Positions 6,488 through 40,308 of a stretch of DNA of 64,000 nt are shown piece by piece (position 1 is the stretch's first letter; every line of letters starts with the position of its first letter). Location: positions 10,340,369 to 10,404,368 of the forward strand of contig NC_049986.1 in assembly GCF_000003815.2 (NCBI RefSeq), given 5' to 3'. A program made the position numbers and the translations under genes. A model generated the notes under the pieces. The model did no database searches. It had not been told where the DNA came from and saw nothing but the letters and a program-made list of their open reading frames with translations. The stretch is from Branchiostoma floridae. Lineage: Eukaryota; Chordata; Leptocardii; Amphioxiformes; Branchiostomatidae.

Positions 6488-8090
6488 TGGCCCCCGTGAC
6501 TCTATACATGTAGAACCTCCTGTACATATAACTCTAGTCACACTCTTTTTATACTACATGTCTGTAGGACAGCTAGCACCTGTGTCGTTGCAAAGCATTT
6601 CTTCCCATCCCAATACATGTACTTCTTTTTGGCGATGCCTCAGGGGCAGAGCCTGCTTTATAGTACTGGGCTCAGTTTGTCCAGTTGCACTAGACTCCAC
6701 AAAAGTTACATTTTCTTTACATGCATGTTGTGCACAACAATACAAGATTAACAGAGATACACTGACTTTCTAGCCAAAACTTTCTTAAAGATATCTTCTT
6801 TCTGTTCCTCTGTCTTGAGCCGATGTTGATACTGTCTTATTAAGGAGAATGTAGGGTGAAAGATTTAAGAATATGTTGATATTGCTAAGACAGTTTACCC
6901 TCCAAAATTTGTCAACACAAGTACTAGTACTATTGATACTCACAAAAAAGTTTCTGTACAGATGTTATAATCACTGTAGTAGAATTTCAAATCTACAAAT
7001 TGAGAATCTGATGCCCGAAAGTTTTGTGGATGCTAACATTAACAAGGTGGCATTTATGTATCTAGTCCAACGTTCAGGTCATTGACGATTTGTAGAGGGG
7101 GTAGTGTCAACTTTGTTTGTTGCTGGAGCTCACACAGTCTTGCTGGGCTAATTGCTAACAGAGATGTTTAGTTTAGTTAGATTGGTATATTTTACTGAGG
7201 TGGGATGGAAAATGGAAAGCGTGCATATGTTCACACTGTGTTGTTGTAGCAAGATTTTGTCTCCTCTCACTAGGAATTAGTCTTCCCAAGAATTGTTTTC
7301 CATGTAGGATCAGGGTTTAGTTTTGCGATCCTCTCATACCAGCATGCGTATTTGAAGCAACGACCCTGGTGTACCAGACCGTGATTGTTTTTCTCACTGG
7401 CGTTTCACTGGCCAACCATCAGCCAATCAAATACTCCCTCTCCTAGCATTGGAGGAAAAGTGACTGTTGCCCCTTGACTGTAAAGAGTGACTTGATTGGC
7501 CAGTAAATTTAGCACTAACAACAGGAGAGTATCTGATTAAGGCATTGAGGACGACATATCGCATGTGGGTACACCAAGGCCATTGATTGAAAGGCACTAG
7601 CAAAAAACCTGGCACTAGAGGGTGAGTTTTGCTTGAAAAAACATGTGGCATTTTGATTAAGGGAAACGAAATTACTGAAGAGAAAGGATGTGTTTTGATA
7701 TGGCAGCTGTTAGAATGTCTTTTCCAAAGTTGGAAGAAAAATGTGTGGATGGATGGAAGGATGGATGGAATATGTGTGAATGCAGTACATGTCTCAGTTG
7801 TTAAGTGGCACCTGTAAGCAGGTGAAGCTCAGCTCATGAAGGTAGAATGTCTTTAGTTTTATGCAGAAGAACTCAACAATGTGGACCAATATGTACAATG
7901 TGACGTGATATGAACAGTAATATTCACACCATTAGAATGCTGTGTATTACAAAACTACATACCATAAAAGAAGGGCATACAGAGAATTACAAAGCCAATT
8001 GTATTTTATTCTTTCCGAGACAGCAATAAACATATATGAAAGACATTTCATTTGATGTTTAACTTCTTTATTACTTGTGCATACATATAC
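6488..8090. other. WDR5 3' UTR and intergenic DNA
   Basis: No coding sequence was recognised. A possible polyadenylation signal, aataaa, lies at 8025-8030, about 1.5 kb past the WDR5 stop, just before the TTAA element at 8091. A short run of ggatggatgg lies near 7747-7769. Confidence 0.4.
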
Positions 8091-13896: not shown

Positions 13897-15170
13897 GCAA
13901 ACCGCATTAAAATATTGTACTTTGTTGCCGAGATATTCTCGGATATAGGTTCAACTAAGCTAACCGCTTACGTACCCTTATGCGTATATACGCTTGAGAT
14001 TCCGAAATCTTCAAAGTTATTCCGGTGGGTCAAACTTTGTATCGTTTGAAAGGTCCCTTGATAGTGAATTGTAATCTGCAAACCGCCTTGAAATATTGTA
14101 CTTTGTTGTCGAGATATTCTCGGATATAGGTTCAGCTTAGCTAACCGCTAACGTACCCCTACGCACGTATACACGCTTAAAATTCCGAAATCTTCAAAGT
14201 TATTCCGATGGGTCAAACTTGGTATCGTTTGAAAGGTCTCTTGGTAGGGAATTGTAATCCGCAAACCGCATTAAGATATTTTACTTTGTTGCCGAGATAT
14301 TCTCGGATATAGGTTCAGCTTAGCTAAGCGCTAACGTACCCTTACACGTATATACGCTTGAGATTCCGAAATCTTCAAAGTTATTGCGGTGGGTCAAACT
14401 TGATATCGTTTGAAATGTCTCTTGGTAGGGAATTGTAATCCGCATACTTCATTAAAATATTGTACTTTGTTGTCGAGATATTCTCGGATATAGGTTCATC
14501 TTAGCTAAGCGCTAACTACCCTTACACGTATATACGCTTGAGATTCCGAAATCTTCAAAGTTATTGCGATGGGTCAAACTTGGTATCGTATGAAAGGTCT
14601 CTTGGTAGGGAATTGTAATCCGCAAACCGCATTAAAATATTGTTCTTTGTTGCCGAGATATTCTCGGAGATAGGTTCAGCTTAGCTAACCGCTAACGTAC
14701 CCTTACGCGCGTATATTCGCTTGAGATTCCGAAATCTTCAAAGTTATTCCGCTGGGTCAAACTTGGTATCGTTTGAAAGGTCTCTTGGTAGCGAATTGTA
14801 ATCCGCAAACCGCATGAAATATTGTACTTTGTTACCGAGATATTCTCGGATATAGGTTCAGCTTAGCTAACCGCTAACGTACCATTACGCGCGTATATAT
14901 GCTTGAAATTCCGAAATCTTCAAAGTTATTGCGGTGGGTCAAGCTTGGTATCTTATGAAAGGTCTTTTGGTAGTCAATTGTAATCCGCAAACCACATTAG
15001 AATATTGTACTTTGTTGCCAAGATATTCTCGGATTTAGGTTCAGCTTAGCTAACCGCTAACGTACCCTTACGCGCGTATATTCGCTTGAGATTCCGAAAT
15101 CTTCAAAGTTATTGTGGTGGGTCAAACTTGGTATCGTTTGAAATGTCACTTGGTAGGGAATTGTAATCCG
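13895..15170 (+). repeat. 182-bp tandem array, seven copies, abutting the LINE ORF
   Basis: Unit starts (ccgcaaaccgcatt or variant) lie at 13895, 14076, 14259, 14440, 14620, 14803, 14985 and 15168, giving a period of 180-183 bp. Each unit contains the palindrome ccgagatattctcgg, the phrase gattccgaaatcttcaaag and a gggtcaaacttggtatcg block. The eighth copy breaks off after ccgc at about 15170, where the LINE-specific sequence begins. It may be the 5' UTR of the LINE, or a satellite into which a truncated LINE was inserted. Confidence 0.93.
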
Positions 15171-18100
15171 CTAGCACTGTGCAATCTGGATCAGAATTGT
15201 ATTTTGTACACTGGCATAAGGAACACAGTTCACCCTTGTTTTTCTTGCCACTTGCGTTCTCATTTTCAAAATAAAGTTTATAGCGAGAAGAAGGAGAAGA
15301 TCAAGTGGCCTAAAGCCAACAACAAAGCAGTGTGGGAAGAGCTAGATAGTGATCTTAGCAACGTTCTGGAGCAAAGCCTGAAAGGGGATGTAGAAAGGAA
15401 GTTGAACCACTTTGGAACTTTGGTGTATAGCTTCTGCAGCGAGAGGTTTGGAACTCTAGTGAGCCAGGGGCGTGGTTCCAATGTACAAGCTAGCACAGGA
15501 AGGAGGGAAAGAGAAATTGCCAGACTAGTCCAGCGTAGACGTCAGCTAAGGAAACTATGGAGGAAGGCAAGTCCCGACGAGAGGGTTGGCCTCCATGCGC
15601 TATGGGAGGAAGTAAGATCCAGACTAAAGTCCTTAAGAAGAGCAGAAAGGTTGAGGAGGAAGCGTAAGAGAAAAGAGACACAAAGACGGCAGTTCTACAA
15701 GCACCCCTACAAATTTGCCAGGTCCTTGTTAGAAGAGAAGAAGGGTGGGACATTGTCTGTCGAGAAAGAAGACCTCGAGGCTCACCTGAGGGAAACTTAC
15801 TCTGACCCGGAAAGAAGTAAGCCACTGAGCTCTCCCGGATATGTACCCAGGCCGCCTGAGCCTTCAATCCCCATGGACATATCCCAACCAAAGTGGAGTG
15901 AGCTGTCTGCAGCAGTACGCAGAGCAAGAGCAGCAGCAGCTCCTGGACCGAATGGAGTTCCTTATAGAGTTTACAAAATGTGCCCAAAGACTCTGTACCT
16001 TCTATGGAAGCTCATGAGGGTGGCATGGAGAAAGCATTGTATTCCAGTCTCATGGAGAAGAGCAGGTGGGGTCCTGATACCCAAGGAAAAGGTGTCAACA
16101 ACCATCAACCAGTTTCGTAACATTTCATTGCTGAATGTGGAAGGCAAACTGTTCTTCACTGTATTGGCTAAAAGACTCACAAGCTACCTGATCAGCAACA
16201 GGCTCATCGATACAGAAGTGCAAAAAGCAGGAATCCCTGGTTTTCCAGGATGCATAGAACACGCAAACACAATTTGGAGTCAAATTCAGTCCGCCAGGAA
16301 ACAGAAGGAAGATCTCCATGTTGTATGGCTTGATCTTGCCAATGCCTACGGTTCCCTACCCCATAAGGTCATTCAGTATGCCTTGAACTTCTTCCATGTT
16401 CCAGGGGAAGTAAAGGGGATGATTAACAACTATTTTGCGGACTTCAAACTCAGCATCAGCACAAGGAACTTCACAACCGAATGGCAGAGACTGGAAAAGG
16501 GAATAGCGATGGGCTGCTCAATATCCCCCCTGCTATTCACCATGGGGTTTGAGATCCTGTTGATTGGAGCCAAGCAAGTGGTGGGGGGTGTGAGAGCACC
16601 ATCAGGAGAGAAGATGCCACCATTGCGAGCATTCATGGACGATGTTACGAGCATCCTCCGAACAGCACCATGTACCAACCGGGTTTTACTCAGACTGGAA
16701 GAGCTCACAGCATGGGCAGGCATGCAGTTCAAGCCATCCAAATCAAGAAGCCTATCCCTCAGGAAGGGAAAGCTCAGCGGTAGGACCTTCTCCGTCAATG
16801 GCCAACATATTCCTACCATCCAAGAAGAGTCAGTCAAAAGTCTGGGCCGCCTGTACACAAGTAATCTGAATGACAAAGGAAGGGGGCAGGAAGTATTAGA
16901 GCAAGCCTGCAATGGTCTCCAACAGATAGACAAGAGTGAGCTCCCAGGCAGACTGAAAATGTGGTGTGTTCAATTTATGCTGTTTCCAAGGCTCAAGTGG
17001 CCACTCAAGATGTACAACATTTCTGTGTCAACAGTTGACCAGATCGACAGAAAGGCCAACGCCTACTTCCGACGGTGGTTAGGTGTGCCGAGATGTCTCT
17101 CATCTGTCGCTCTGTATGGCAAGAACAAGCTCAACCTTCCTTTCTCGTCAATTGCAGAAGACTTCAAGTTAGAAAAGGTCCGACTGGTGTTGGAATTGGA
17201 GGGCTCTCAGGACTCTTCAGTGAGAGCAGCAAACCAAGGCCTTAGCACTGGAAAGAAATGGAGTGCAAGTACCTCCATTAGTCAAGCCATCAGTAGACAA
17301 CAACACAAAGACCTGGTGGGATCAGTCCAAGTGGGGCGAGCAGGTTTTGGCTGGGGCAAGAGAGACCAAAGGTGGAAAAGTGCGAACCCCAGTGAAAGGA
17401 GACAGTTGGTTATCCAAGAGGTTAAGAGGATGGAGGAGGAGAGGCGGAGAGTAACAGCAGTCGGCCAGAGCCAACAGGGAGCCTGGCTCAACTGGGAAGG
17501 CGCAGTGGAGAGGAGGCTCACGTGGAGCGATCTGTGGAGCATGCAGAATGCTAGGTTGAGTTTCCTCCTCCGCTCAGTGTATGATGTCCTCCCCAGCCCC
17601 TACAACCTCACCCGCTGGTATAAAAACGAGGAGTCTTGTCAACTGTGCGGCCAAGCCCAAGCTGACCTGAAACACATTCTATCTAACTGCAAAATTGCCT
17701 TACAACAGGGTCGTTACACATGGAGGCATAACAAGGTGCTCAGGCTAATTGCAGTGATGCTGGAGGAGGTGAGGAAGAAAGCCAAAGGTGCTACTGCACG
17801 AACACAACCAATCCAGTTTGTAAGGGAGGGCCAGAAGCCCAAATCAGCAGACAGCAACAACATCAACACTGGCGGCGGCCCACTGAGTAGAGGGAAATGG
17901 GAAATGGCAGTAGATCTTGATAGACAACTCCGTTTTCCAAGTACAATTTGTGTCACACAGTTGAGACCCGATCTGGTTCTGTGGTCAGAGGACCAGAAGT
18001 CTGTGCTGATTATAGAACTTACCGTTCCATGGGAAGAGAATATTCAAGAGGCCTACGAGAGGAAGAAACTAAAATACGAAGAGTTAGCTGATCAATGTAA

Positions 18101-18475
18101 ACAACAAGGGTGGAGAAGCAGAGTCTACCCAGTCGAGGTCGGAACCAGAGGGTTTGCAGGAACATCCCTCCTACGCTTGTGTAGGGATCTACAGATACAG
18201 GGGAAGATACAGTCTCAGTTTGTCAGGCAGGTGACTGAAGAGGCAGAAAGAAGCAGCTTTGTCCTGTGGATCAAAAGGAAGGACAAGTGTTGGAAGAAAG
18301 CCGCCTAGAAGTGAGGCACCAGTGCCGGAAGCAGGTGGGAGACGTCCCCCCTGCTGTCCCGCCGCCCGGAAGCGTATCAGTAGCAAAGGGGACGAAACGT
18401 TGAGGAAGGGCGGAGACTGACTGAGGATCCGGCATTGGTGCCCCAGCAGAGTGCTGAGAAGCACATACAGTTTAG
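15171..18475 (+). mobile_element. RLE-type non-LTR retrotransposon (HERO-like) with long open reading frame
   Basis: An uninterrupted frame runs to the stop at 18306-18308; counted from 15114 it is 1,064 codons. Order (residues counted from 15114): basic N-terminal part; reverse transcriptase with VWLDLANAYGSLPHKVI near 403, GIAMGCSISPLL near 465 and FMDD at about 507-510 in place of the usual YADD; a CCHC knuckle (CQLCGQAQADLKHILSNC) near 842; then a restriction-like endonuclease (RPDLVLW near 951, followed by IIELTVPWEE). RT before a CCHC and a C-terminal nuclease is the R2/R4/NeSL/HERO layout; HERO is my best guess. No ATG occurs in frame before about 15872 and no N-terminal zinc finger is seen, so the copy is probably 5'-truncated near 15171. 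A 3' UTR of about 165 bp (gacgaaacgttgaggaag) ends near 18475. The open frame suggests a young insertion. Confidence 0.88.
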
Positions 18476-24295: not shown

Positions 24296-27037
24296 GGTGA
24301 GGTAGCCCCGACTCGAACTCACCCCGTCCACGTTTGTACCACCTACTGATCTCGTATTTAAACGTATTGCCCTAGGGAAAAAAAGCGCGAAAAAGGTGAT
24401 AATGTCAGGCGGTAATAAAAAAAAGAAGTTTCGACGCTATTTTCAAACTAATGGCTTTGTGCTGTCCACACGAGGGACAACGATGTCTGATGTCTTTATT
24501 TGTAAAGGTATACGTAACGAAAAAAAAAAGTTTACAAAAAAACAAACAGATGGGTCGGAACAGAAATTGCGAACTTAATGCAACTTTTGACAGAAATTTA
24601 GATGTGCAAAAAAAAAGCCGACCAACCCGTAAATTTGTTTTTGTTATTTATCATAAATACGCGTAGAACACGGAAATATGATACTAGTACGTATCTAATC
24701 TGAATATATTCCCACGACACTTCTCCGTATATCTGATTTTCGTCGGGAGTCACTCGGTCACCTAATAAAGATGATAACAACAAATTACAAATGCCGTTTA
24801 AGTGTTCTGTAAAATAGGTAGCTAAATAACGTAATAAAAAGCTTTCTAAAGCTTTTTTACTACGATGATTTAAATCATATCGAAAATAATACAAAAACCT
24901 AGCGCTTGGTAGATAACTATCCCGGATTCACTGATTACAGATATACCTGCCCTTTTCTTTCGAAAAAGTTAAAGATACACTTTACTACTAGAACAAGGGA
25001 AAGGACTAACATTCTGAATTAGAAAGATTTCTGGCTAATAATATATAATAATAATGATATTTCATTAAAAAGATGTGCTTCGCAGCCCCCAAAACGGGCT
25101 GAATTATGCAACAAATTCACAGACTTCAAGTGTCTACTAACAACTGACTGACTCATCAAACTTTACACATTAATGTCTCCGAAACAGCATTATTCATGTG
25201 ACCATACATATTTAAAAGTTCAATGCTTAAAAGAGATAGATCGGTATGTGCAATAAAATTGGAGAGGAAAATTTGATCATAAAGGTCGAGGATGGACAAA
25301 AAAATGTGTATTCCTAAAATCTGGCAAAAACGTGTGATCTTTGCCGCATTATACGGCATTCCAACGTTATTCGAAACACTCCACTCTGATCTCATTCCAT
25401 GGAGAGCCGAAATGGCAGGCTACTTTCAGTCCTGCCAGAATGTCACAAACATGGGCACACATATAAGGAATTTAGTGAGAATTTACAGAATACACTGTGA
25501 CAGCTTTCATGCAAACTGATCTGGTTTTTATAGGATAATCCAGCTTATGTAGGTAAAAAATGATCATATTTCTATAGTTTGTGCGCCTCTGTCTTCCCAT
25601 ATCGCTAACATACAAAATTGCAAGTTCTACATTTCATGGCCAACTCTGTCAAAAAACCGTCAATTTTTTGCATTTCTAAGCACAGCATCTGAGGTCAGTA
25701 TGTTTGTAGAAAATGTGCCCCAAAGGTACAGCACAGGGTTGTCAATGTTTTAGTATCTTCTGGACTTCGAGCCTGGTAACCATACCATCGGGAGCTCGCC
25801 GCCATCTCCACGGTGCTGGAAGTGTTCCCCACCCGTCCAGTTCATTAGCGCACGCCGGGCATTTTTACTGGTATAACTTAACCTACTAGCTAGCCCTGTA
25901 GCAATAGACACCTGTTTACTAAATGACATATATGTTTTAGTGTGATTGTTTTGTAGCTTCCCTGTCTGCCATGTGGTATTGTATTAATGTACTTCATGCA
26001 TAGGACAACAAGAAGAATAGCTGACAGAAATGTCTATCTGACTGTGGATCTAGATAAAGTCAAGTATAGAGTACACATCGTCAAAAGTCCTTACCTGACA
26101 GTGTAGTCGTAGGGCTGCCTTCTCTCTCAGAACACAAAGGTCACAAGAGACTGTGGGATGTGTTCACGGAGAGTTATTCTAGCAGTATGTGTGGGTGGAT
26201 ATCTCTCACGTGTTGTCCCACTTTGATGTGAAAGAGTGACTGGTAAAAAGCCATCATAATTGTATATGAAGAACACCCCTCCTGTAAGGTGGCATCGTCC
26301 ATCAGTGACGTCACTCTAGTGGTACGAATCAGTTACAAAACGTCTCTGTCAGATTTTCTTTTCTTTTCTATTTTATTTTATTTTATTTCCTTCATCTGTT
26401 AGGCCTAGGAAAAATTCTTATGTTTATTCCGGTTACCGCGACCGATACAAGACATAACTACTAGTAAGACAACCTTTTTGGTCCACAGGTAACAAGGGAC
26501 TTTCGGTATGACATCTGCGTGATGAAAAAGAATCATTTTCCAACATGCTTCCCCCATTTCTGTTTCAATAGAAAAGGTAACATCAGAAACAGACTCACTG
26601 AACATAGGTCCCGTTTATCTCGACAACTCGCATATAGAGTATTGTAAAAACCAGACTTATGTAACGTTAACCTCATACCTTCGCTGAATGATATAAACAG
26701 ACTGACTCTTTATAAAAAAATTTACATTATACATATTAGATATTCATTTAGCAAGAAGTTAAGACACATTAAAACCCGATAGCAATTTTGACGTAAGTTG
26801 ACACGTACAATTACAAACGCCCACCTTTAGCTATATGGTTGGCCACGTTACACATTCGAAAGCTTTCAATTCGAAAGAAACGTTCTTTTGGAAACGTACA
26901 TATTCCTGTGTACTGTGACACGCGCTAGTTGTAACATATAAAGTGTATTACATAGCCAGCGCATTGCGCATTGCATATTACGTCACAGCAGCGCCCCCTA
27001 TACGTAGGTCAGTAGCACGACAGGTCATCATTTAATT
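24296..27037. other. Intergenic region between divergent tyrosinase and PLAAT genes
   Basis: Promoters of both genes must lie here, but no core element stands out clearly. The region is AT-rich. Around 25770 there is a fragment gagcctggtaaccatacca related to the TAGCCTGG MITE family. Open frames at 24396-24666 and 25156-25519 have no recognisable protein signal. Confidence 0.5.
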
Positions 27038-29370
27038 ATGGGAGGACGATGGATGTTTTGGCACCAGCTCCTCGAGCACTGCGAACGCGGAGATCTGATC
27101 GAGATCGACCGGACGACATACTACCACTGGTGCGTCTACATCGGCCAGGGTGATGTGGTCCACCTCACCGGGCTAGAGGACAACACTAAACCCGACTCCA
27201 AACCCAGCCTCAGTTCATCGGCATCCTCCGCAAGCGTCCTCGGGGAGACAGCGCTGGTGCGCCGACAACATCTCCGGGAGGTCGCGCGGAATGACCGATG
27301 CAGGGTGAACAATAAATGGGACGCTAAACACGAGCCGCTAGAGCCGGATGAGATCGTGGCCATGGCGGTGTCGTGTGTAGGGCAGGAGATGCGGTACGAT
27401 GTGGTGGGGAGGAACTGTGAACATTTCGTCACCGCTTCCCGATATGGGCGTTCTGGAGGATTCAGTGATCAGGTATTGTATTTTTACCTTGCCGGGCAAG
27501 GTAATGAGGCCCGATCTTTACATGGTTCAATCAATGGTTCAATCAATGGTTCAATCAATGGTTCAATGTTAACCCAGCCCTTCCAAAGGCCCTTCAAAAG
27601 GCCCTTTTCTCTTTGCCCAATTTTATGGCTTAGTTAGACAAGGGTACATTGCAGGCCAGTATTAAAACTGTATTTTAGACGTATGTGGTCCAGCGTAAAT
27701 AAATCTACGCTTTAACCCATGTTTATCATAAAGATATATCAAAAATTGCATCAGAAGGAATTTATTTTGTAATAAAGAATAATGCATACTCATTGTGGGT
27801 CAAAAAGTTTTACAATACCGGTTTATTGTGCCAATAATTTATCTGACATAGATTATGTTAATGAGGTAAATTTCCCTACACTTGGGGATTTTTGCTGCAT
27901 TTCATACTGAAGTTGCTAGGTGTCGCTCTTTGTACATTGCAACAACATGAAACAAAAAAATAGCCGCAAACTTCGGGACTAGTAGCCAGGTAAGTACATT
28001 TTAAAGCCATTTGTGACTATGAATGTCCTTGATAGAGTTTGTATTGTGTGAAAAATAGATTTGAGACTGGATTGGCAGCTGGAGAAGTCACTAAAGCTTT
28101 CCCGTACAGGAATTGGGGTGGGAGGGGGGCGACATGTGGAACTCTGTGGTTGTCTCTGATTATTTTGATGTGATCCCAATGTTAACTGATGAACACTGGT
28201 GAAGCGCCGAGGTACCTTTTCCTGACGAAATCCCTACTACCCGGCAAGGTACAGCTTTTTTTAAAGCACTTGTTTCCCATGAGACATATAACGTTACATA
28301 GCGAGCTATTCTAATTTACCGGTCCACTCAAAGTCAACGTAAGCGTTGCCGGTGTATTAATATTGTTCGTAGAGTGGAATACGTGTCATATCATTTGGAT
28401 GAACATCCGATGTTTCCGTATCGCGTATATACGTGGTCACGCGAACGCCCTATTGCCGGAAGTCCCAATTAATGGGATATCCGGATGTCACGATGCTCGC
28501 AGCTGTGGTTGACACGATGATATGGATGCCATTTTCTGGGGACCGCAAAACTGCTGCAAGGTGCAAGTAAAAAGATTACCCAATCCCGTGCACATCTACA
28601 TACATTTGCAAACCTCATGTCTTTACCCCACTGCAAAGCTGGATTTGTCGGGTTTGTTTTGGTTTAAAAATGGGAGGTCATCTCCCGTGTTTTAACGAGC
28701 TACAACCATGCGGATGATTCCAATAACACAAGGATTTCACCTCCTGTCCTATTGTACCAGTCCTGTCCGGGAGCTGTCATTCAGGGGCTAACTTCAGTTC
28801 TAAACATGACAAGACCTGGGTCAAAATTGTTTGCCAATTTTTAAAATTTAAATGCTTCTGTCCTCGAGGCCTCCCATCAGAAGACTTGACCTTTTAGTAT
28901 GACTAAAGTTGGCCCAGGAATAAATATTAAAAACTAAATAATATTCAGGTCGATGGTATGCACGATGCAATCGACTGCACAAATCAAACGCTGGTCCCTC
29001 CCCTTACTGTAAATGCATTTATGTTCAATCAGATTTTTTATCATGCGTTTGTCGCGTTAGCTAGCGGGAAAGTGGATTGTTCGCGGCAGTGCTATACACT
29101 GTAGTCACATACTGTAATGGAAAAATGTTCGCGTTGGGTTTAAGTTCGCGGTAAGACTGCCTCGTGAAAACCGCGAAAATAAAACCACTGTGAAGATGTC
29201 TGCATTTACAGTAGCGCATATGAATTTAGCGCATATGAATTTTCAAGCCATGTTTAATATTTTGTCCTCTTTTTCAATTCCAGGCTAACAACGCCGTGGC
29301 GGCAGTAGGCGGGGTGACTGGTGGTCTCATTATAGGATTCCTCCTCAGTATGTTCTTCGGCAGGCGGTGA
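27038..29370 (+). CDS. PLAAT/HRASLS-like LRAT-domain phospholipase A/acyltransferase
   Basis: Two exons, 27038-27472 and 29284-29370, give 173 residues. LRAT-domain enzymes of this group use a Cys/His/His centre to cleave phospholipids or transfer their acyl chains at intracellular membranes. Visible: GDLIEIDRTTYYHWCVYIG with His30, VVHL with His42, and the active-site box GRNCEHFV with Cys127. Spacing matches human PLAAT proteins (His23, His35, Cys113) except for a Ser-rich insert (SSSASSASVLGETAL) after the second His. The second exon codes only for the hydrophobic C-terminal anchor (GGLIIGFLLSMFFGRR), as in PLAAT tail-anchored proteins. The ATG lies in a good context after an AT-rich leader. 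It converges with the RdRP gene, whose stop is 800 bases away. Which PLAAT paralogue it corresponds to cannot be told. Confidence 0.92.
27473..29283 (+). other. PLAAT intron with small repeats
   Basis: The intron contains a 12-bp tandem repeat (ggttcaatcaat, four copies, 27524-27567), duplicated aaaggccctt blocks near 27580-27605, and the MITE at 29005-29213. The bases from 29214 repeat tagcgcatatgaattt twice. No exon was recognised inside. Confidence 0.6.
29005..29213. mobile_element. Short MITE with tactgtaaatgca ends
   Basis: Ends tactgtaaatgca and tgcatttacagta form a perfect 13-bp inverted repeat. The interior has gttcgcg and ccgcgaaaat blocks in opposed orientation. It is non-coding; the target-site duplication is not clear. 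Confidence 0.7.
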
Positions 29371-30167: not shown

Positions 30168-33100
30168 TTATCTATATAAGGTGTCGCCAAGTTCAAGGCA
30201 AAAGTGCCAGTATTCCCGTGCGAAGGCCTCGACGTCCCCGGGCCCGGTCCAGTCGGGCAGAGGCGGGATGACTGTGACCTCCTGCCGCCCGGGGATGACT
30301 CGGGTGAACCGTCCGCTGTCGTCAGGTCGGGAGTACTCCCACACTTCGGTTAGACGCACCTAGAGCATGTTGAAACACGGAGAGGTACGGTTTGTAGTAA
30401 ACGTAGAGGTTAAACTACAACGATATTGAGACAAAGAAGACAAATCCGCTGTCATTTATCAGATCAGGTACTCACAAATAGAGGTCCGTGCCTAGCCTCC
30501 ATAGCAGGCTCTCTTGGGTCTTTTTTGGGGTCATAATACACTTTTGCTGGCCATTTCTATTTGTTCTCCTGGGGGCCGGCAGTCAGAAAAGGCCCGCAAT
30601 CAGCGACCGAGTACAAATAGAAATGGCCAGCAAAAGTGTATTATGAGCCAAAAAAGGCCCCAGAGAGCCTGCTATGGCCTTGCCGTTGAAACGTAATTTT
30701 GTCTAAATAACATACTTTCTGAAAAGAAGCTACTTACTTGAATGCAGTGTAACCGAATGCAGTGTGCGGGGCGGGGCGAAACTCCTTCCTCGTTAAACTC
30801 CCTTTCCCGGCATAAGAGACCCTAGCCAACGTTGAAAATCGCGAACCAGCGCGAAGTCTACCAAGGAGGCTACTTTACCTCCACATCTGTCCGAAAGCGG
30901 CTGTGCTGGACATCGTCAGCTGCCCGGAACCGTCGGATGACCCTTCTCCGGACAAAGGGGACATTACCCTGGTAGTGAGGGTGGATCTGGAGAGTCGTTA
31001 CCCCATCACGACATTGAAAGTCATAGCTGAAATAACAAGAGACAAAACATGATAAGAAATTGTGGCTTCCTGGGTTTCTGTATGTTCGTAACAATATCTA
31101 TTAAATCTCACTTGTCGTTAATATTAGAATTGTCGAACGACTACAGACACATTACTAGTTGTGCACAAGGGAAGTCCATTAGTCTATATGCGCTACCACC
31201 CTGATGACATTATGTTCGGAAATACAACTGCAAGATTTGCAACAACGAACTTGAGCACTACATGTATGGCTATTTACAAGGTTGATTTTTAGAAGAACAG
31301 ATCGAACGTACCTGTGCACCTGTACCAACACTTTGACATCTGGGTCCAAGAACTTCTTGTACGTTTCGTTCTTCTCCACACTCTCTCCCCTCAGAGCGCG
31401 CCGCGACTGAATTTTGAGGCGAATGTCAGTCCCGGACGGATGGTCGTCGCTCGTCGGATCGCGTGGACGTCGCTTGAGGTCCAGAGCCATCCACGTCACG
31501 TCAGGTAAGCGGAGTTCAACAAAGTTGAAAGCCTTGTCTAAAATGAGGGCTCCTTTGGTACCTCTGTCTAGCTTGAAGGACACGTTGTACTTCTCTGTGC
31601 AGGAAAACTCTTCAAAGTTGAAGGTTTCCAGGAATTTCGGCAGGACGTTCTCGGTAGCCGTACACGGGATGAAAGAGTGCTGCATGTGGGGATCTACAGA
31701 CGGTGTCGAGGCATTACCACGCCGTCGGCCCCTCCTCTTACCACGCACTCTGCTAAGGTAAGCATCAATAGCCAGGTGCCCGTGCTCTACATCCTGTTCG
31801 AATTGTTCTACGGTCATCGTTTTCGGCAAGTGCGACGTGTTGTACACGTAGACGTTGCCGTAACGAAAGGTCGCCCTAAGTTGGCCGTGTTTTGCTTCAT
31901 CGTATTCATCACTTATACACTGACCTTGCCGCCGTAACATTTGAAGGAACAGCTCGAAGTCGGCACCGTCCCCCGTCTGTGTAGTGATCTGAGGACCGTC
32001 CAGCAGGTAAGGGGATTCTAGCGTCTTGTCATCATGTTCAGGATTTCTTTGTCCGTCGTACGACCTGAGTTGGATATTATCCTGTTTCGATTTGAAGCCT
32101 TCGAACACAATACAACGGCCCTCTTGAACGGACGGCTGTCTCCCGACAGCCAAAGGCACAGGGTGCTTTGATCTTACCTCCAACTGTTTGACTTCTTCCT
32201 CCACCCGCCTGAGAGCGTCCTGATCGCCCCACGCCTCTAGGATGAAGCCGATGACGTCACGGAACATGCGGCGCCTGATGGCGACCTGGGCTCCGGTCAA
32301 ATCCGACAGGCGAGTAGCGTTAAAGTCTTCCGCATGCAGAACAAAACCGAGACTTTCTCGACACAAGTTGAGAACCAGGTGCCCCGGTGCTGTCATCTGC
32401 CTGCCGAGGAGGCCGAACACCCCGATAGCCTGTGCAACATGGTGATAGGCGTGCAGCATGTTGTCTCGCAGCTTCTTCTCTTTGTCTCGGGAGATGTGAT
32501 CAACCAACGGCCGTCGATGTTCCTTCATCGACGGATCCGGCACCATCAGCAACTCTCTCTTTGAGATGGAGCTGAAATGCTCAAAGAACTTCAGTAGCAC
32601 AACTCCATCATCTAAGCTTTGGATACTCGCTGGTGTTTTTGACTGTTTGCCTCTGACGATCGCCTCACACTCGGTCTGGATGTCGGGATCTCGGAGCTTC
32701 GCGATGAAGTCGTGGGTTTCTGCGAAGCCCAGAAACAACAGAGTGAGAATCTCTTCCGGAATGACGTCATCTCTACCCCTTCCGCAGATGTGAAACTTTC
32801 GGGACCAGTCCATCAAAACGTGCAACACCGCCAGTAGGTCCGGGCGTCGGGCTGTGTGGAGTTTGATGTATGCCGACCTCCTAAGGTCGTGTAGCGAGGA
32901 TGTGAGGCTCACTGTCGCCTTCGCTCCTGAGTCTTCTTTGAACAAAAGCGTGAACCCCTTTCCCGCTTTCACATGCGTTGCTTCCTTGACACTAGTCTTT
33001 ATGGCGCTGCAGATTAACGGTAGTATTTGTCGGCCATCAGAGCTGAGATTACTGTCTACTCCCCTGTCTTCAGAGACAAAGATCTCAACTGTTGAGTCGT

Positions 33101-36100
33101 CATCACAAATCCCCGTCAGACCAGGGCCTATGAGCACGAGCTTGACACCGCCCACCACTCCTTCAACAGCCTTCTGTATCTTTCGAAAAAGCTCCGTTTG
33201 TCTCGTCTGAGCCCCAGTGATTCGTGTAAGCTGTAGATCCAAGTGTCCCCGTAGGCTCTTGGATATCGAGATCAGGGCCTTGTTTGTATCTTCTTCTGAA
33301 GCTTGTCCTGGTTCCAAACCTCTTCCACGTGCAATCTTCTTCAAACTCGCCAGGACGTCATATACCACCCAGGGAAAGCTGAGAAGTTTGGGCGAGGGAT
33401 CGTGAGGCTTTTCGTCATAGGCATCAGAATAGGTCACCATGTACCAAGCTGAGGCCCTCTTCAGTTGTTCTTCCTTACGTCTCTCTTCTGATAACTCTTC
33501 CACGTCGAACTGCTTGAAGAACTCGGCACGAGTCTTCCTCCAGAGTGTCTTGAACCTCGCCCTGACGTATTCGGTGACCTCGAAACGTTCGTTCTTCAGG
33601 AGACCCAGTCGCTGTTTGACTTTCAGAATGCAACCTGACACCACTTCACCCTCACTGGTTATGCCATACAGAGACATGATGGACATCATCATGTTGTTGT
33701 AGATGTTGAGTTGCGTCTGTGCATCTTCGATATAGGAATCGAAACCCTCGCGGACTAAGTCGTGGTCTATGCCACTAGTATGGTACACGATATCGTCAGT
33801 GCCGGAACGTTGGTTAGCACTGTCCAGTTCCTGACACTTTCGAAACAGCCTCCCTATAATCCTCTCAGACCGATACTGTGGCTTGTCCGATTTCATCATG
33901 AAGTCTGGATACACTTCGGGTCTGAGATCTCCCTTCAATTCCGGACACTGACCAGTCTTCGGCGCGTCTACTGCATCTGAGTGGAGCTGGGCTAGGTCGA
34001 TACACTTCTGGGAGAAGATGCCTTGATCCTCCTTGTCTGCGTGAACGAGATGGGCGTTGGCAATTAGGCCGAGCTGATTGCTTCCGATGTACTCCGCGAA
34101 GAACTCTATCATGTCTGATTCTTGGACGGGGCGGTGGAGAACTCGCTTCGGTTGCGCAGTGAAGTCCATGGCTGGTCTGTTCTCTCGCGGTAGGATGAGA
34201 CCCTCTCTCCACGTCACGAAGTACATGTCGCCGTCCAGGTCCGACCCGGACATCTCATCGGGGTGGGGGCGGGGTCCTCGCGACGGGAAGACGATGCAGT
34301 CCACCATGTGTCGGAGCTCCGGCACGTCCACGGCAGTGAACTTGCGCATGTCCCCGGGGTGGAAACAGGGATTTTTGGTGACGGTGACCTGACCTTGGTG
34401 GACGACTTTGTCAGCCTGTGGTTTATCTACTTCCCTTGAGTACTGGATGAAAACCTGTCCGTACTGTAACTTTCCAGTCTCGTCCATTGTCCCCATCATG
34501 ATTCGTCCCTCTCCAGCAGGTATCTGAAAGATAAACTTTATTGCACGACAATTGTATTTGGTACAATGTATGGTAGCAACTTGGGGTGAGTACCAAAACG
34601 GTGTACCGGTACAAAACCGTTTTTTTTGTTGTTGGACCGGACCTGAAAAAAATCCGTGGACCGGATTTTGGACCGAATAGAAAATGAAAAAAACTATACC
34701 GGCAGGCGTTGACGTTTTTTTTTGGGGGGGGGGGGGCATGTTTAAGAAAATAACTAGAGTGAAGCAGACTATAGTTAATTGCTATTCTTACCAAGTTTCC
34801 ACAGTCAAAATTGGTTTAAAACAGAGGCAGTTAGTGTTGTTTACATGAAGGTAGGATTTTAAAACGCCAGTGGACGTCGGATATGCCACCAAGCAGAATC
34901 CTTTGTAGCGAAATGGGCCATTGTTTTGAGTATCGCCCATTCTATCAAAAGTATACCCCGTTTTAGACAAATTGTACAAGTTATTCTATTAAGTGAATTA
35001 CTGGACATCGCTACCTCTATCCTCGTTCGCCGGAGAAGTTCTCCCATTCGGTTCCGGTAAACAGCCAACAACATCGACCGGAAGAACGGCTCAGTAGTCA
35101 GCGAGATTCCGCTGTCATGGAGAGCTCGGATGCTGCAAGAAGAGTGCAAGATATAACCGTTACGATATAACGCAAGTTCACCTTTATCCGCGGGATAACC
35201 TATATTCGTTTTTTTTTATATTTAGGGATATCAGGTTAACGGACGGCGGTTTCAAACAGAATTTTCAAAAACATTGTTTGTACTTATAATTTTGCAATTT
35301 GAAAACACAGTCTGTCGACTTGATTTCCCCAAATAATCAGACATCTAAATGTGTTCCAATGCCCATACTTTTAGGTACACGATACTTAGGCTTCTTGTAT
35401 ATGCTACGGTGTAATTTGGAAACAAAGGACTCCTCCGGGTAGCTTACTAACTGTTTGCGGGGGGTTACATGGGACACACGGTGGCTATAGGCTATTTTGA
35501 GGCACAGCCGGGCCAAATAAAATCCATGTTTCTAAACTCGAAGTTAAAATCAACCCGGGACCCTGCGAAAAATGCTACCCGGTATCCTGCAGTACATGGG
35601 ACGTAATTGGAGCTTGGCTGGGGCTACACTCCTTGATGAGGGCACCGTTGGAAATCCGACAGTAGCTAGTACTTACTCCATGCCGACCCGGGCGCCCGAC
35701 AGTGCCTTCACAGCCGCCTCATCTAGGATCAGCATTTCCGCCAGCTGGTTGAGAACACGTTCTTGTAGCTTCAAGAACTCCATGTCAGGCACGTTGAGAC
35801 CAGACAGCAACGTGATGGCCTGTCTGTTCAAACTCAGGACTCCTGTATAGGGTGGAGGGAGGCATTGAAGACATGAAAGATCCGATCTACACTAAAACTT
35901 TCAAATACTAGTTCACCTTTATCCGCCGGGTAATCAATATCCATATAAAAATTATATGACCTTATGGCCAAATTATAACAACACTGTCAGGAAGGCAAAA
36001 TGGTTTTCTAACCTGGAGTAGTGACTGAGGTGACTTCCAGAGTTTTGTGTTCTGACTCGAACTTTTTCATGCTGCCGCGGATTTGGATCCTGTCGGTGTT

Positions 36101-38605
36101 CCCCAGGGTAGGGTCTTGGGCCAGCACACCTTTACAGCCGGCGTACCGGATTTGGAAGGCAGAAGGGACTGGGGAAACACCCAGAGCTGCCGCGACCTGT
36201 AAAATGTTGTATTGAAAGTCACGTTAAAGTCATGTTAAAAGTTACGCTGAAAGTTATGTTAGACGTTACGTTGAAAGTTACGTTAAGAATTACGTTGAAA
36301 GTTACATTAAAGGTTACGTTAAAAGGTATATTAAAGGTAAGGGTCCTTCCCGCAACAAATAGTGCATCGGACGGCGCCCATCTCAGTTTCAGTAGCCCTG
36401 GGCCGCACAACGTTTGTGCAATCGCTACAGCAGGTGGATAGTCTACTGATAGTGGTCTGTGTACTCAACTACTACGTACTTTCCCAAAGGCTGAGTGCTG
36501 AGCAGAGAAACACTGTACACCATTTTTACGTTTGAAGGCCCAATGGCAAAGTGTGCATGCATCAGGGATTGCTGATACTGGGTTAGTGAATAAAAGACCT
36601 TCATTTTACATTTATGCTCTAACAAGGTTCATAGCGATAAGGCACAATTTTTATGCAAGAAAATTAGTCTTATTTTCATAGACTGAGACGGATACCGGTA
36701 CCTACAAGAACAGGTTCTACATCTTACGTCTTATATAGTTGTCTAATTGCATGAGGAATATGAATTTTTCCGTGCATTTTAAATTGGCAGAAATGTATGG
36801 CACATACCAGTAGGTCTCTTTAAATTAGTAATTTTATACACACGGTGGTCTTGGCAATAGGGTACAAGGTGTAAAGATGAGAGTCGACGTTAAACAAAAT
36901 GTATCAACTCAAGCTACAATACCTTCTTGGCAAGTGGGACGGAGATTTTCCCGATGCCGTCAGAGAAGGTGTGCGTCCCTGAACTTGTCTCAACGTCGGC
37001 GATCAGTTCGACGCTCCGATCCTCGACGCTGACGCTGACGGCGTTCCAAGAGGAGGAGAAGAACTGACCCAGTCGTGAGACGTACGTCGCCACGCAGCGC
37101 TCGTGCGACAGGTCGCCCATCCACCCGCGGATGTCCGACGTCGACGTCGTTGTCTTGTCCACTGCCGCATACATCCAACAGCCGTGCTCCCTCATCTGGC
37201 TGTTGGAAGATCCAAGATACTTGAAGTGTCGTTCTCCAATCCTGATTCCTTTCTCTAGGACATCCTTCACCCGTGACGTCACGCACCTGATGGGGTTGGG
37301 GTTTGTAACGGCAAGCTTGCTGAAGTCCTCGTCTCGGAAAGCCACGCGGATGAAGTTGTCGACGCCGTATTCTCGGACCACCCTGTTCTCGACGATAGGC
37401 TCGGGCTTGAGAAACAACATTTGAGTAGGCGTGACCACCACCTTTCTCGCGTAGACGTAGTGGTCGGGGAGGTCTTCAGTGTGGTTTTGATCGATGGTAG
37501 ATGCGTTTTTCAACTCTGTCTGAAACGCCGCTTGCAAGTCGCAAAAACAGTCCCCATCAAGCCATACATCTGCCACTTGATGTAGTGCAGAAGCGGTCGC
37601 TATCGGGTCTTTCCTTGCAGCAATGTCCAACGTGGACAGAAAAGCCGGTAGGGCACGGTCGGAGACTTTGTACCCCCTGGAAAGTGCGCAGCGCCATGCA
37701 TATGTAACGGAAAAGTCATCGAAGGCTTTACTTAGGTTACCGTCAGTAGGGGGCGCTGTAATCACTCTTGTCGATGAAAAGTAGATTTTAAAGCCAACCT
37801 TTTCCAGCCTGCGAAGAGCGCCCTCTATAACAGACCCGTCTGTTGAGCTCTCAACTACGTCAAGGGCTAACACTGAGCTCGAACCGATGGTGTCAGGAGG
37901 ACAAGTGGAGAAAGATAGGACCCTGTCTTCTTGAGCGGCCCTAGTTGACTTCGATACGAAACACCGAGGCGCAATGTTGAGTGGAAAGAACAGCGTCGTG
38001 TTTCTACTCTCGCGAGAGCACACGAGAACAAAGCTGTCTAAACCTGAGTAAGGTACTGCCATTTTCTCGATGTTGTTATTGTTCTTCAAGCACACAGACA
38101 AGGACTGAAGGTCGTGCTCAAGGTGTAGTGAAATATCCGGCGTGCTATCGTGTGATTCCTCCATCCAGTGGCTCACATACGTACCGTGGTGTAGAAAACA
38201 ACCAAGGGACACTCTGACAACATCTAAGACTTGTAAAGATGTGAGTCTTCCGGGAGACTTTTTCTCCGTTGTTGAGATGTGAGTTGAGGACAATTCCAGC
38301 CAGTAAGGCTTTCCTACCTCCACAGCGCGACACCACTGTTTACACACACTCAACGTGTTCGCTGCTTTTTCAGAGGGAACAAAAGAAATCTGATACACGC
38401 CCTTTGACGTTGACGTTTCCTGTACAGTGAAACTTGGCGAGAGCAGAAAAAACACTTCTTTAACGTAGTGCAGCGACTCGGAACTTCCAACGTTATGAAC
38501 CTTTCCTTTCAGTGGTAGAGTGTCCTGTACAGGTGCAGTTTTTAATTGGGGAAGACTTGTAACAAGCAGTTCCTCGCTTTTCACTTTTAACGAAGAACCT
38601 TCCAT
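30168..38605 (-). CDS. Cellular RNA-dependent RNA polymerase with degenerate nucleotidyltransferase-like region
   Basis: Cellular RdRPs copy RNA into double-stranded RNA for silencing pathways. Exons in order: 38605-36923, 36196-36013, 35842-35677, 35132-35015, 34523-31312, 31026-30879, 30359-30168; 5,703 nt, 1,900 residues, phases consistent. Residues 1 to about 380 have no motif I know. The RdRP core spans about 386-1115: VTPTQMLFLKPEPIVENRVV (391), HTFSDGIGKIS (545), IRGSMKKFE, AGEGRIMMGTMDETG (720) and PHPDEMSGSDLDGD with metal-binding Asp812, 814 and 816, then SAWYMVTY and LLSFPWVVYDVL. All key residues are present, so it should be active. Residues about 1160-1380 resemble a PAP/TUTase nucleotidyltransferase (IGPGLTGICDDDSTVEIFV; RPDLLAVLHVLMDWSRKFHI; EEILTLLFLGFAE), but DSTVE stands where DxD is expected, so it is probably inactive. 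The last 480 or so residues are unassigned. The 3.2-kb fifth exon holds most of the core and the extra region. The start is the first ATG of the large first exon; upstream exons cannot be excluded. Confidence 0.93.
30499..30677. repeat. Near-perfect hairpin, ~65-bp arms, in the last RdRP intron
   Basis: The left arm 30499-30564 (starts ccatagcaggctctcttggg) pairs with the right arm 30613-30677 (ends cagagagcctgctatgg). The loop is about 48 bases. Mismatches are few (a short difference around ttttttggggtc/gagccaaaaaag). It is probably a small foldback transposon. Transcribed with the intron, it would form a long RNA hairpin. Confidence 0.85.
34584..34950. mobile_element. Relic of the hAT-like MITE in RdRP intron 4
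   Basis: It shares gtgtaccggtacaaaaccg, ggaccggacctgaaaaa, accaagtttccacag and gattttaaaacgccagtg with the element at 12116-12542, but lacks its right end. It also has a T/G run near 34710-34737. The copy is decayed. Confidence 0.75.
35176..35345. mobile_element. Partial copy of the gttcaccttta MITE in RdRP intron 3
   Basis: It starts with caagttcacctttatccgcg and contains gtctgtcgactt, both found in the fuller element at 47270-47478. A second fragment (ctagttcacctttatccgcc) lies at 35909-35945 in intron 2. Confidence 0.6.
36212..36340. repeat. ~15-bp degenerate tandem repeat in RdRP intron 1
   Basis: There are about eight to nine copies of a gttacgttgaaa-type unit with substitutions. On both strands they give short repeated peptides in open frames, which I take as a by-product of the repeat. 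Confidence 0.8.
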
Positions 38606-40308
38606 TGTCCCAATGTTTCACTGTGAATATTCAATAACCTGGATTTCAATGAACTGTCGTTAGGTGTCAATCTTACCAAGGAGGTTTTGATCAAGTTTCC
38701 TTGATCATAACTATCTACATGTACATAGGATTGTTCAACTTGATAACTTATCAGACTCTCAAAGATCATAAGAAACATACCTTTTGTGGACGGGTGGATA
38801 ACGATTTATAGTACATATCAACAATTTCGTGGCATCACCCAGAATTAAGGTGAAAAACTCAAATTTCGGGGCAGATTTTATCTGTTTCCACTATCCACCA
38901 ATTTGTCAAATGCGCGCAGTCACGTATATTTTCCAGTCGACGTTCTTTTGAAAATAAGTACTAGGTATGTGGTGAGAAAAAACAATGGTGAACTGTGATA
39001 AGAGCTGTGTGAATCTTGTTCCTCATGTCGTGAAATCTTTGAAGAAATGGTCAAAATGTTTCATGAGGATTTCCTTCCTATTTCAACTAGACAGAAGTGT
39101 CTATCTGACTTTCAGCAGCGCAATTTGACCCGCACACCTCAGGTAGCAGCTTAATTACCCATGTTTTGTTTTCCTTCTGTTATCAAACCTAACCTGGTTT
39201 CGTCTGCAATGTAAAAATCACAATTTGACTCTTGGTTGACATTCATGAAAGGCTTGATTTTTTCGCAGTTATGCCCCGAATTGTGCACCTTATTTCTGGG
39301 TGAGGCTGCGAACTTATTGATCACCGCTATTGACAGACACCAGTCCGTAACCTGATACACGTACTTCACTATAAAGGTGCTACCAAACAACACAACAATC
39401 ATAAAGTATAACAACATGCATATATATGATCGAAAACAGTTGGTCGTTCACTGTAGGTACACTTTGACTAGCTATTGGAATCTATTGACGGCACTGTGTT
39501 CAACATAGAACATAACTCAAGTTCTTACCTTTTTTTCTGAGGAAGAGTTGTTTTTCAACCCAGATGTATTTGACAAAATGCCGACGTCACGTCTTAGTTT
39601 GCACTTTCGGCATTAACTGCACAAAACACTGCTTTAAGTTTCTTTGAATATCTGTCACTTAACTGCAAAGGAACACCTAGAACTGATTCAGTTCTAAAAT
39701 GTTATGTTAATGTTATGAAATGTTAGTTCTAAAAGGTAACAGGGAATGGAACTTGGTTATGTCTAGACCAAGAAGGCAAGGTTTCAGTTCCGCTCGTAGA
39801 CTATTATGTAGCCTATTGTAATGGTTTGAAAGGGTAGTGTTTCACGTGACGTCATCGCTTTTAGGTGGTACGTTTGAGTAGGATTCTTGTGAGGTCGAAT
39901 AAACACATGACGTTGGACAGAAGAGATTCCAACTTTTCTTTTAAGAAACACGGAAATCTCGCTTATAGCATCCCGCCTAACAATTGATTGGTCTTTACTG
40001 CGGCAAGGGGTCAGTTACAGCCCTGGACAGCAGAGTTTGTGTTACACAGACTTATAGTTCAACCAGGTACACACAAAGGCCCTAAAGTACTACTCAAAAG
40101 AAAGACGAAGCAAAACAAAAACAAAAACAAAAAAAAAACTACGAATGTTTAATATTTTAATGCAGCAATACAACTTCAAAATTTACATGTAATAAACGAA
40201 GTACTCTGAAGTAAGTTACATTAAAAGAAGAGCATTCTATGGTCTTGTAGAAGCAAGTTTGTGTATCATTAAGTACACATTTTCTAGCCAGTCTGTATGC
40301 CATATGTA

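Follow-up and report, generated by a model that had tools for sequence, protein, structure and literature searches.

Why does an RNA-dependent RNA polymerase (RdRP) exon of the lancelet Branchiostoma floridae run on long after its likeness to known polymerases has stopped, and what might this tail be? The gene lies on the minus strand of a 64,000-nucleotide stretch of contig NC_049986.1 (positions 10,340,369 to 10,404,368), which is referred to here as the window and whose coordinates are counted from its first letter, and the exon in question, exon 5, occupies 31312-34523. A degenerate poly(A) polymerase (PAP)- or terminal uridylyltransferase (TUTase)-like domain had been proposed behind the polymerase core in the initial annotation, and hhalign comparisons with controls, together with the order of weak Pfam hits, uphold such a module. 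As judged from sequence profiles, its relation to the terminal nucleotidyltransferases (TUTase/MTPAP/GLD2) is real but remote, and the tail very probably derives from a TUTase or non-canonical poly(A) polymerase placed behind the RdRP head domain. For the history as a whole we favor, with somewhat better than even confidence, a TUTase that was fused to an animal RdRP, lost its catalysis and would now hold RNA or a partner.

From the polymerase core to a transferase-like tail

PF05183 matches in two exons (E 1.8e-85 and 2e-44, Pfam) assign the gene to the eukaryotic RdRPs, and the catalytic motif DLDGD (34241-34227) stands intact upstream of the tail in the same exon, as the initial annotation had described. 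The end of the core and the head domain (33321-34523, minus strand) were followed by phmmer into PDB chains, with a match to 7eu0_M covering residues 718-1115 of 1133 (E 1.3e-77); frame residues 82-483 align to RDR2 and 86-487 to RDR1-like chains, which sets the limit of RDR1/RDR2 homology at frame residue 482-487. On the RDR2 side the match ends at chain residue 1115-1116 of a chain of 1133, and a profile of five tails matched RDR2 at 1101-1125 only (E 0.5). Because the RDR1/RDR2 homology stops ahead of them, residues ~488-1156 constitute an addition of about 670 residues within exon 5, and the extension is longer still when exons 6 and 7 are counted.

The genome searched was a 513-Mb assembly in which the window lies on contig C8 and the paralogues are named by contig (C1, C13a-c, and C4). 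The main hhalign query was a two-sequence alignment of the window and C1 tails, and the template held ten transferase sequences, namely seven stretches from six PDB chains and three genes of the genome. This comparison between hidden Markov models, of a kind proposed along with the original domain call, gave a score of 42.9 (probability 75%, P 2.6e-5) over 233 collinear columns at 13% identity, the match proceeding in order from the helix ahead of the strand that bears GS as far as the PAP-associated part. None of 400 column shuffles reached that score (maximum 27.7) and neither did any of 69 E. coli open reading frame segments (best 20.8), while seven other window stretches scored 8.7-17.2, these E. 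coli and window controls being single sequences, unlike the two-sequence query. The window tail alone scored 32.2, the C1 tail alone 39.2 and the reversed query 13.5, and the known transferases, each left out in turn, reached 131-421. For the helical half by itself the score was 30.0, a value matched by no shuffle among 200 (best 22.3), and the five tails together gave 49.0, where the highest of 197 shuffles was 25.6. Palm and central domain taken jointly are thus related by profile to the TUTase/PAP family; the palm alone is marginal, and the relation draws mainly on the helical half and on the collinearity of the two parts in one match.

Within the tail, a part that resembles a nucleotidyltransferase palm but is degenerate (frame residues ~514-640, 32862-33242, minus strand) is followed by a helical part resembling the PAP central and PAP-associated regions (32382-32861, minus strand), which is delimited by hhalign and by constraint and corresponds to what DUF7752 matches in the C13 paralogues. 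The three motifs from which the domain had been called do lie in one minus-strand frame, IGPGLTGICDDDSTVEIFV at 33131-33075, RPDLLAVLHVLMDWSRKFHI at 32846-32787 and EEILTLLFLGFAE at 32756-32718. The region first outlined, residues 1160-1380, is indeed transferase-like; its limits were too narrow. The module is longer and takes in a part resembling the PAP-associated domain; behind it come a KH-like piece and an unknown domain.

When pieces of the tail were scanned against Pfam without preselection of families, the palm region drew MTPAP-like_central (E 0.18 in the window, 0.018 in C1) and the C13c paralogue alone gave PAP_assoc (PF03828; E 0.07, below cut-off), and these were the sole nucleotidyltransferase families found, each at its expected place. 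As every transferase hit fell under the cut-off, and these scans also listed unrelated families at E 0.14-0.25, only the position and order of the hits carry weight. DUF7752 (PF24934) likewise stayed below cut-off in the window (E 0.027-0.042), with 14.4-15.0 bits there and 15.0-15.6 in C1 against a gathering threshold of 29. No match to the tail was returned by NCBIfam, nor by Pfam for 32381-31182. Protein kinase chains at E 0.17, obtained with the tail against PDB sequences, were taken as chance, and of further tail searches of PDB sequences one gave RDR2 only (E 0.5-0.8) and another nothing. Two low-confidence structure models arrange their elements in palm-like order and are at most compatible with the transferase reading: Foldseek with the first returned 163 matches at E <= 10 and 0 at E <= 0.001, and the list from the second, which includes CD-NTases, OAS and NF90-NF45, supports no claim of a fold, all Z values being under 8.

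Catalytic positions, constraint and paralogues

In the stretch that should carry the GS and DxD motifs (IGPGLTGICDDDSTVEIFV, 33075-33131, minus strand), the hG[GS] motif reads GP in the window copy and GS in C1. In both copies a joint alignment shows TVE in place of the DxD metal-binding pair (33084-33092, minus strand) and Thr in place of the third catalytic Asp (32913-32915, minus strand), with a DDD (Asp560-562; NDN in C1) just ahead of the TxE. The earlier reading of GP, DSTVE and a missing third acid was correct, GP being particular to the window copy. With two of the three metal-binding acids gone, the module should not transfer nucleotides. Comparison of the window with C1 puts the ratio of nonsynonymous to synonymous divergence (dN/dS) at 0.12 for core plus head (dS 0.83), 0.28 for the module (dS 0.79), and 0.15 for the C-terminal domain (dS 1.91, close to saturation). 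Per 60 codons the ratio ranges from 0.14 to 0.54 across residues 507-866. The module is plainly constrained, though less so than the core. Because its catalytic residues are degenerate while the remainder is constrained, the tail transferase is likely a pseudo-enzyme.

The PF05183 search of the genome returned at least 26 exon matches at no fewer than 6 loci, and with the tail as query the window and C1 were the only loci at E <= 0.001. The C1 paralogue has the same architecture, with 66% identity in the module and 59% in the C-terminal domain. The comparison with other RdRPs that had been suggested at the outset was made on the paralogues of this genome: palm and helical half are kept in the window and C1, the helical half only is kept in the three C13 paralogues, and no such module was seen in the C4 tail (hhalign 11.8 against the transferase template). 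In the C13 trio SFPW, which closes the head, lies only about 70 residues ahead of the first central helix, compared with ~178 in the window, which leaves no room for a palm. Their tails match DUF7752 above cut-off (E 1.7e-10, 1.3e-10, and 7.9e-12), and these are the only three DUF7752 matches across the genome, each in a C13 RdRP tail. As an alignment, the trio scored 41.0 against the TUTase template (best of 200 shuffles 26.4); taken singly, C13c matches (45.7), and C13a (12.4) and C13b (18.6) do not. Two of the C13 genes stand tail to tail (L023/L024, G000:C13:11813000-11825400), and the third lies on this contig too, at a distance of ~160 kb. The C4 locus (L026, G000:C4:19538500-19548400) encodes a divergent RdRP with a different tail and an AAA_11 helicase frame (6761-7447) downstream.

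Behind the module lies the KH-like piece (residues ~828-872, 32166-32300, minus strand), a fold named by eye that is present in all five related RdRPs, namely the window, C1, and the C13 trio, with C13 counterparts at L023:5512-5655, L024:4549-4403, and L025:4763-4620. In tblastn searches of a small database, for which the pieces were chosen by eye, the window piece detects those of C13a (E 0.015) and C13c (E 0.003), and these in turn reach that of C13b (E 8e-7 and 1.6e-7). A Pfam scan of the piece did not name KH; the C13b copy gave DUF7636 (PF24642) at E 4.8e-4, below cut-off. It is followed by a further C-terminal domain of unknown kind (31312-32129, minus strand) that is common to C1 (59% identity, dN/dS 0.15), and tblastn did not find it in 10-kb stretches taken from the four remaining RdRP genes. 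Together with exons 6 and 7, this part extends to 30174 and is conserved with C1.

The most economical history would have a TUTase fused behind the RdRP before the five genes split, catalysis lost before C8 and C1 separated, and the palm lost on C13. The opposite course, in which an existing helical domain gained a palm, appears less likely because palm and center align jointly to one family. Since both palm-bearing copies lack the acids and are under purifying selection, the module was probably inactive before the window and C1 copies split and is probably still in use.

Possible functions and competing explanations

That the three C13 paralogues keep the helical half without the palm suggests that binding, not catalysis, was retained. 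In what we take, tentatively, to be its most likely role, the tail with its KH-like piece may grip template RNA at the 3' end, or else a protein that does so, and could present this end to the polymerase of its own chain, much as RdRPs elsewhere are coupled to separate transferases. The fusion would plausibly be a covalent form of the Rdp1-Cid12 and Rdr1-Rdn partnerships. A wider version, to which we give slightly less than even weight, has the TUTase fused to the ancestral animal RdRP, so that DUF7752 would be its unrecognized fossil, a catalytically dead receptor for RNA ends or partners that survives in animal RdRPs, its palm still visible in this genome in the C8 and C1 copies. That DUF7752 is a Pfam family suggests that it occurs more widely than in lancelets. 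A purely protein-protein platform, making no contact with RNA and pairing with an active TUTase or an RNA interference (RNAi) factor, is by our estimate a less likely reading; the NF45/NF90 pair and the inactive TUT4 module, both catalytically dead, are its parallels, and the adjoining KH-like piece would instead indicate RNA, although that piece was named by eye. Continued nucleotide transfer with non-standard metal ligands, such as the Glu of TxE and the nearby Asp560-562, seems highly improbable: each copy has Glu as its second acid, with DDD (NDN in C1) just ahead, but Thr stands at the first and third acid positions of the two copies, GS reads GP in the window, and three paralogues have the helical half with no palm at all.

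Several observations weigh against a transferase origin and would suit a helical tail that is an RdRP-specific domain with a convergent likeness to PAP/TUTase, the "palm" being an unrelated alpha-beta insertion carried by two of the copies. The palm alone scores a marginal 23.9 by hhalign, with 1 of 200 shuffles as high (24.0), the second model's structural list is led by FliF domains, and the C13 trio has no palm. Palm and helical parts are nevertheless collinear in a single 233-column match far above its controls, and the weak Pfam hits fall at the right places, which makes convergence improbable in our judgment. We consider it equally doubtful that the fused transferase is a functionless relic in the course of being lost. 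Such decay would account for the missing palm in three of the five related copies and for a module dN/dS above that of the core (0.28 against 0.12), but the exon is free of stop codons in both the window and C1, and the values of 0.14-0.54 per 60 codons over residues 507-866 argue for constraint throughout. A fused transferase that lost catalysis and kept a binding role remains the reading that we prefer.

Gene model, surroundings and known systems

Exon 5, which holds the end of the RdRP core, the head, the TUTase-like module, the KH-like piece, and the C-terminal domain, lies in a minus-strand frame that is open throughout 34781-31182. Recognizable coding starts at ~34523, and the start of the exon there rests on the conserved reading because the acceptor scores poorly (-0.2 by rough splice-site weights); the 3' boundary agrees with a donor-like site at 31312 (score 5.6). 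The exon aligns with C1 as a single block of 1135 columns at 67% identity. Splicing out of the palm was considered and set aside, as exon 5 contains no acceptor-like site scoring 6 or more and one donor-like site of 5 or more, at 32178; this argument is weak, since the same rough weights give low scores to several of the gene's own sites.

The other six RdRP exons, all on the minus strand, are conserved with C1 at 63-92%. The first recognized exon frame (36914-38617, its exon near 36914-38605; the Pfam match of E 2e-44; 63% identity) holds the N-terminal part and PF05183 positions 1-177, and is followed by exon 2 (36011-36196, PF05183 positions 176-239, 92%), exon 3 (35676-35842, acceptor 35842, 82%), exon 4 (35012-35132, acceptor 35132, 86%), exon 6 (about 30877-31026, acceptor 31026, 64%), and exon 7 (about 30174-30359, 85%), the ends of exons 2, 3, 4, and 7 being approximate. 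A 12/24-base minisatellite occupies 36206-36335, between the first and second recognized exons. Past the 3' end of the gene, a plus-strand frame at 27008-27637 carries an LRAT domain (PF04970, E 3.8e-38), and a retrotransposon-like open frame of 1072 residues at 15090-18308 (plus strand) contains a reverse transcriptase domain (RVT_1, E 8.9e-16). A viral contig search gave five stretches that fit a pattern, none of which was confirmed.

Among the lancelet studies, here as below in their accessible parts, six candidate RdRPs, three of them with an intact active site, are described for Branchiostoma lanceolatum, where AAA_12 in BL02069 is the sole additional domain named, and small RNAs of lancelets show no convincing RdRP activity (PMC6396948); the word "nucleotidyltransferase" does not occur in the accessible main text of that paper. 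The AAA_11 frame of the C4 gene recalls this AAA_12 (PMC6396948). In B. belcheri, one of six RdRP genes is dispensable in 50% of tested individuals (PMC12373286). An RdRP-transferase fusion was not found in the literature searched on lancelet, worm, and yeast RdRPs and on TUTases, a search to which most subscription papers were external; literature on fused nucleotidyltransferase domains returned virus or phage papers. The Pfam names of DUF7752 (PF24934) and DUF7636 (PF24642) give no function or fold, and no mention of either was found in the literature searched. If our reading is right, DUF7752 would change from a Pfam domain of unknown function to a testable module, and a built-in pseudo-transferase would suggest what animal RdRPs recognize, namely RNA 3' ends or tailing factors.

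Compared with RDR2, RDR1, and other PF05183 RdRPs, the window gene is alike in core and head (E ~1e-77) and in its intact DLDGD; the RDR2 chain ends soon after the homology limit, whereas the window gene adds its long tail in exon 5. With TUT1, MTPAP, GLD2, and TUT4-7 it shares the collinear palm, central, and PAP-associated-like parts, and it differs from them in its degenerate GS/DxD/D positions, its fusion behind an RdRP, and its remoteness (13% identity). The inactive N-terminal module of TUT4 is also degenerate at the acids, and the C1 copy has a similar GSxLTR....S.V.I.I spacing; it is not closer by profile, and as its removal from the template leaves the score unchanged (43.0), no special kinship is claimed. 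That module adjoins a TUTase module, the window module an RdRP.

In the fission yeast RNA-directed RNA polymerase complex (RDRC), an RdRP is coupled with the nucleotidyltransferase Cid12. Tetrahymena Rdr1 pairs with Rdn1 or Rdn2, which are nucleotidyltransferases (PMC6562869), a link of the worm transferase RDE-3 to RRF-1 through MUT-16 has been proposed (PMC12265681), and in worm EGO-1 two changes that fall outside its RdRP domain, V1128E and S1198L, accompany defects in exogenous RNAi (PMC12457629). In the fission yeast and Tetrahymena systems the transferase is a separate subunit, whereas in the window gene it would, by sequence, be a degenerate part of one chain, so that, if the reading is true, a coupling of RdRP and transferase that other lineages achieve with separate proteins is covalent in an animal.

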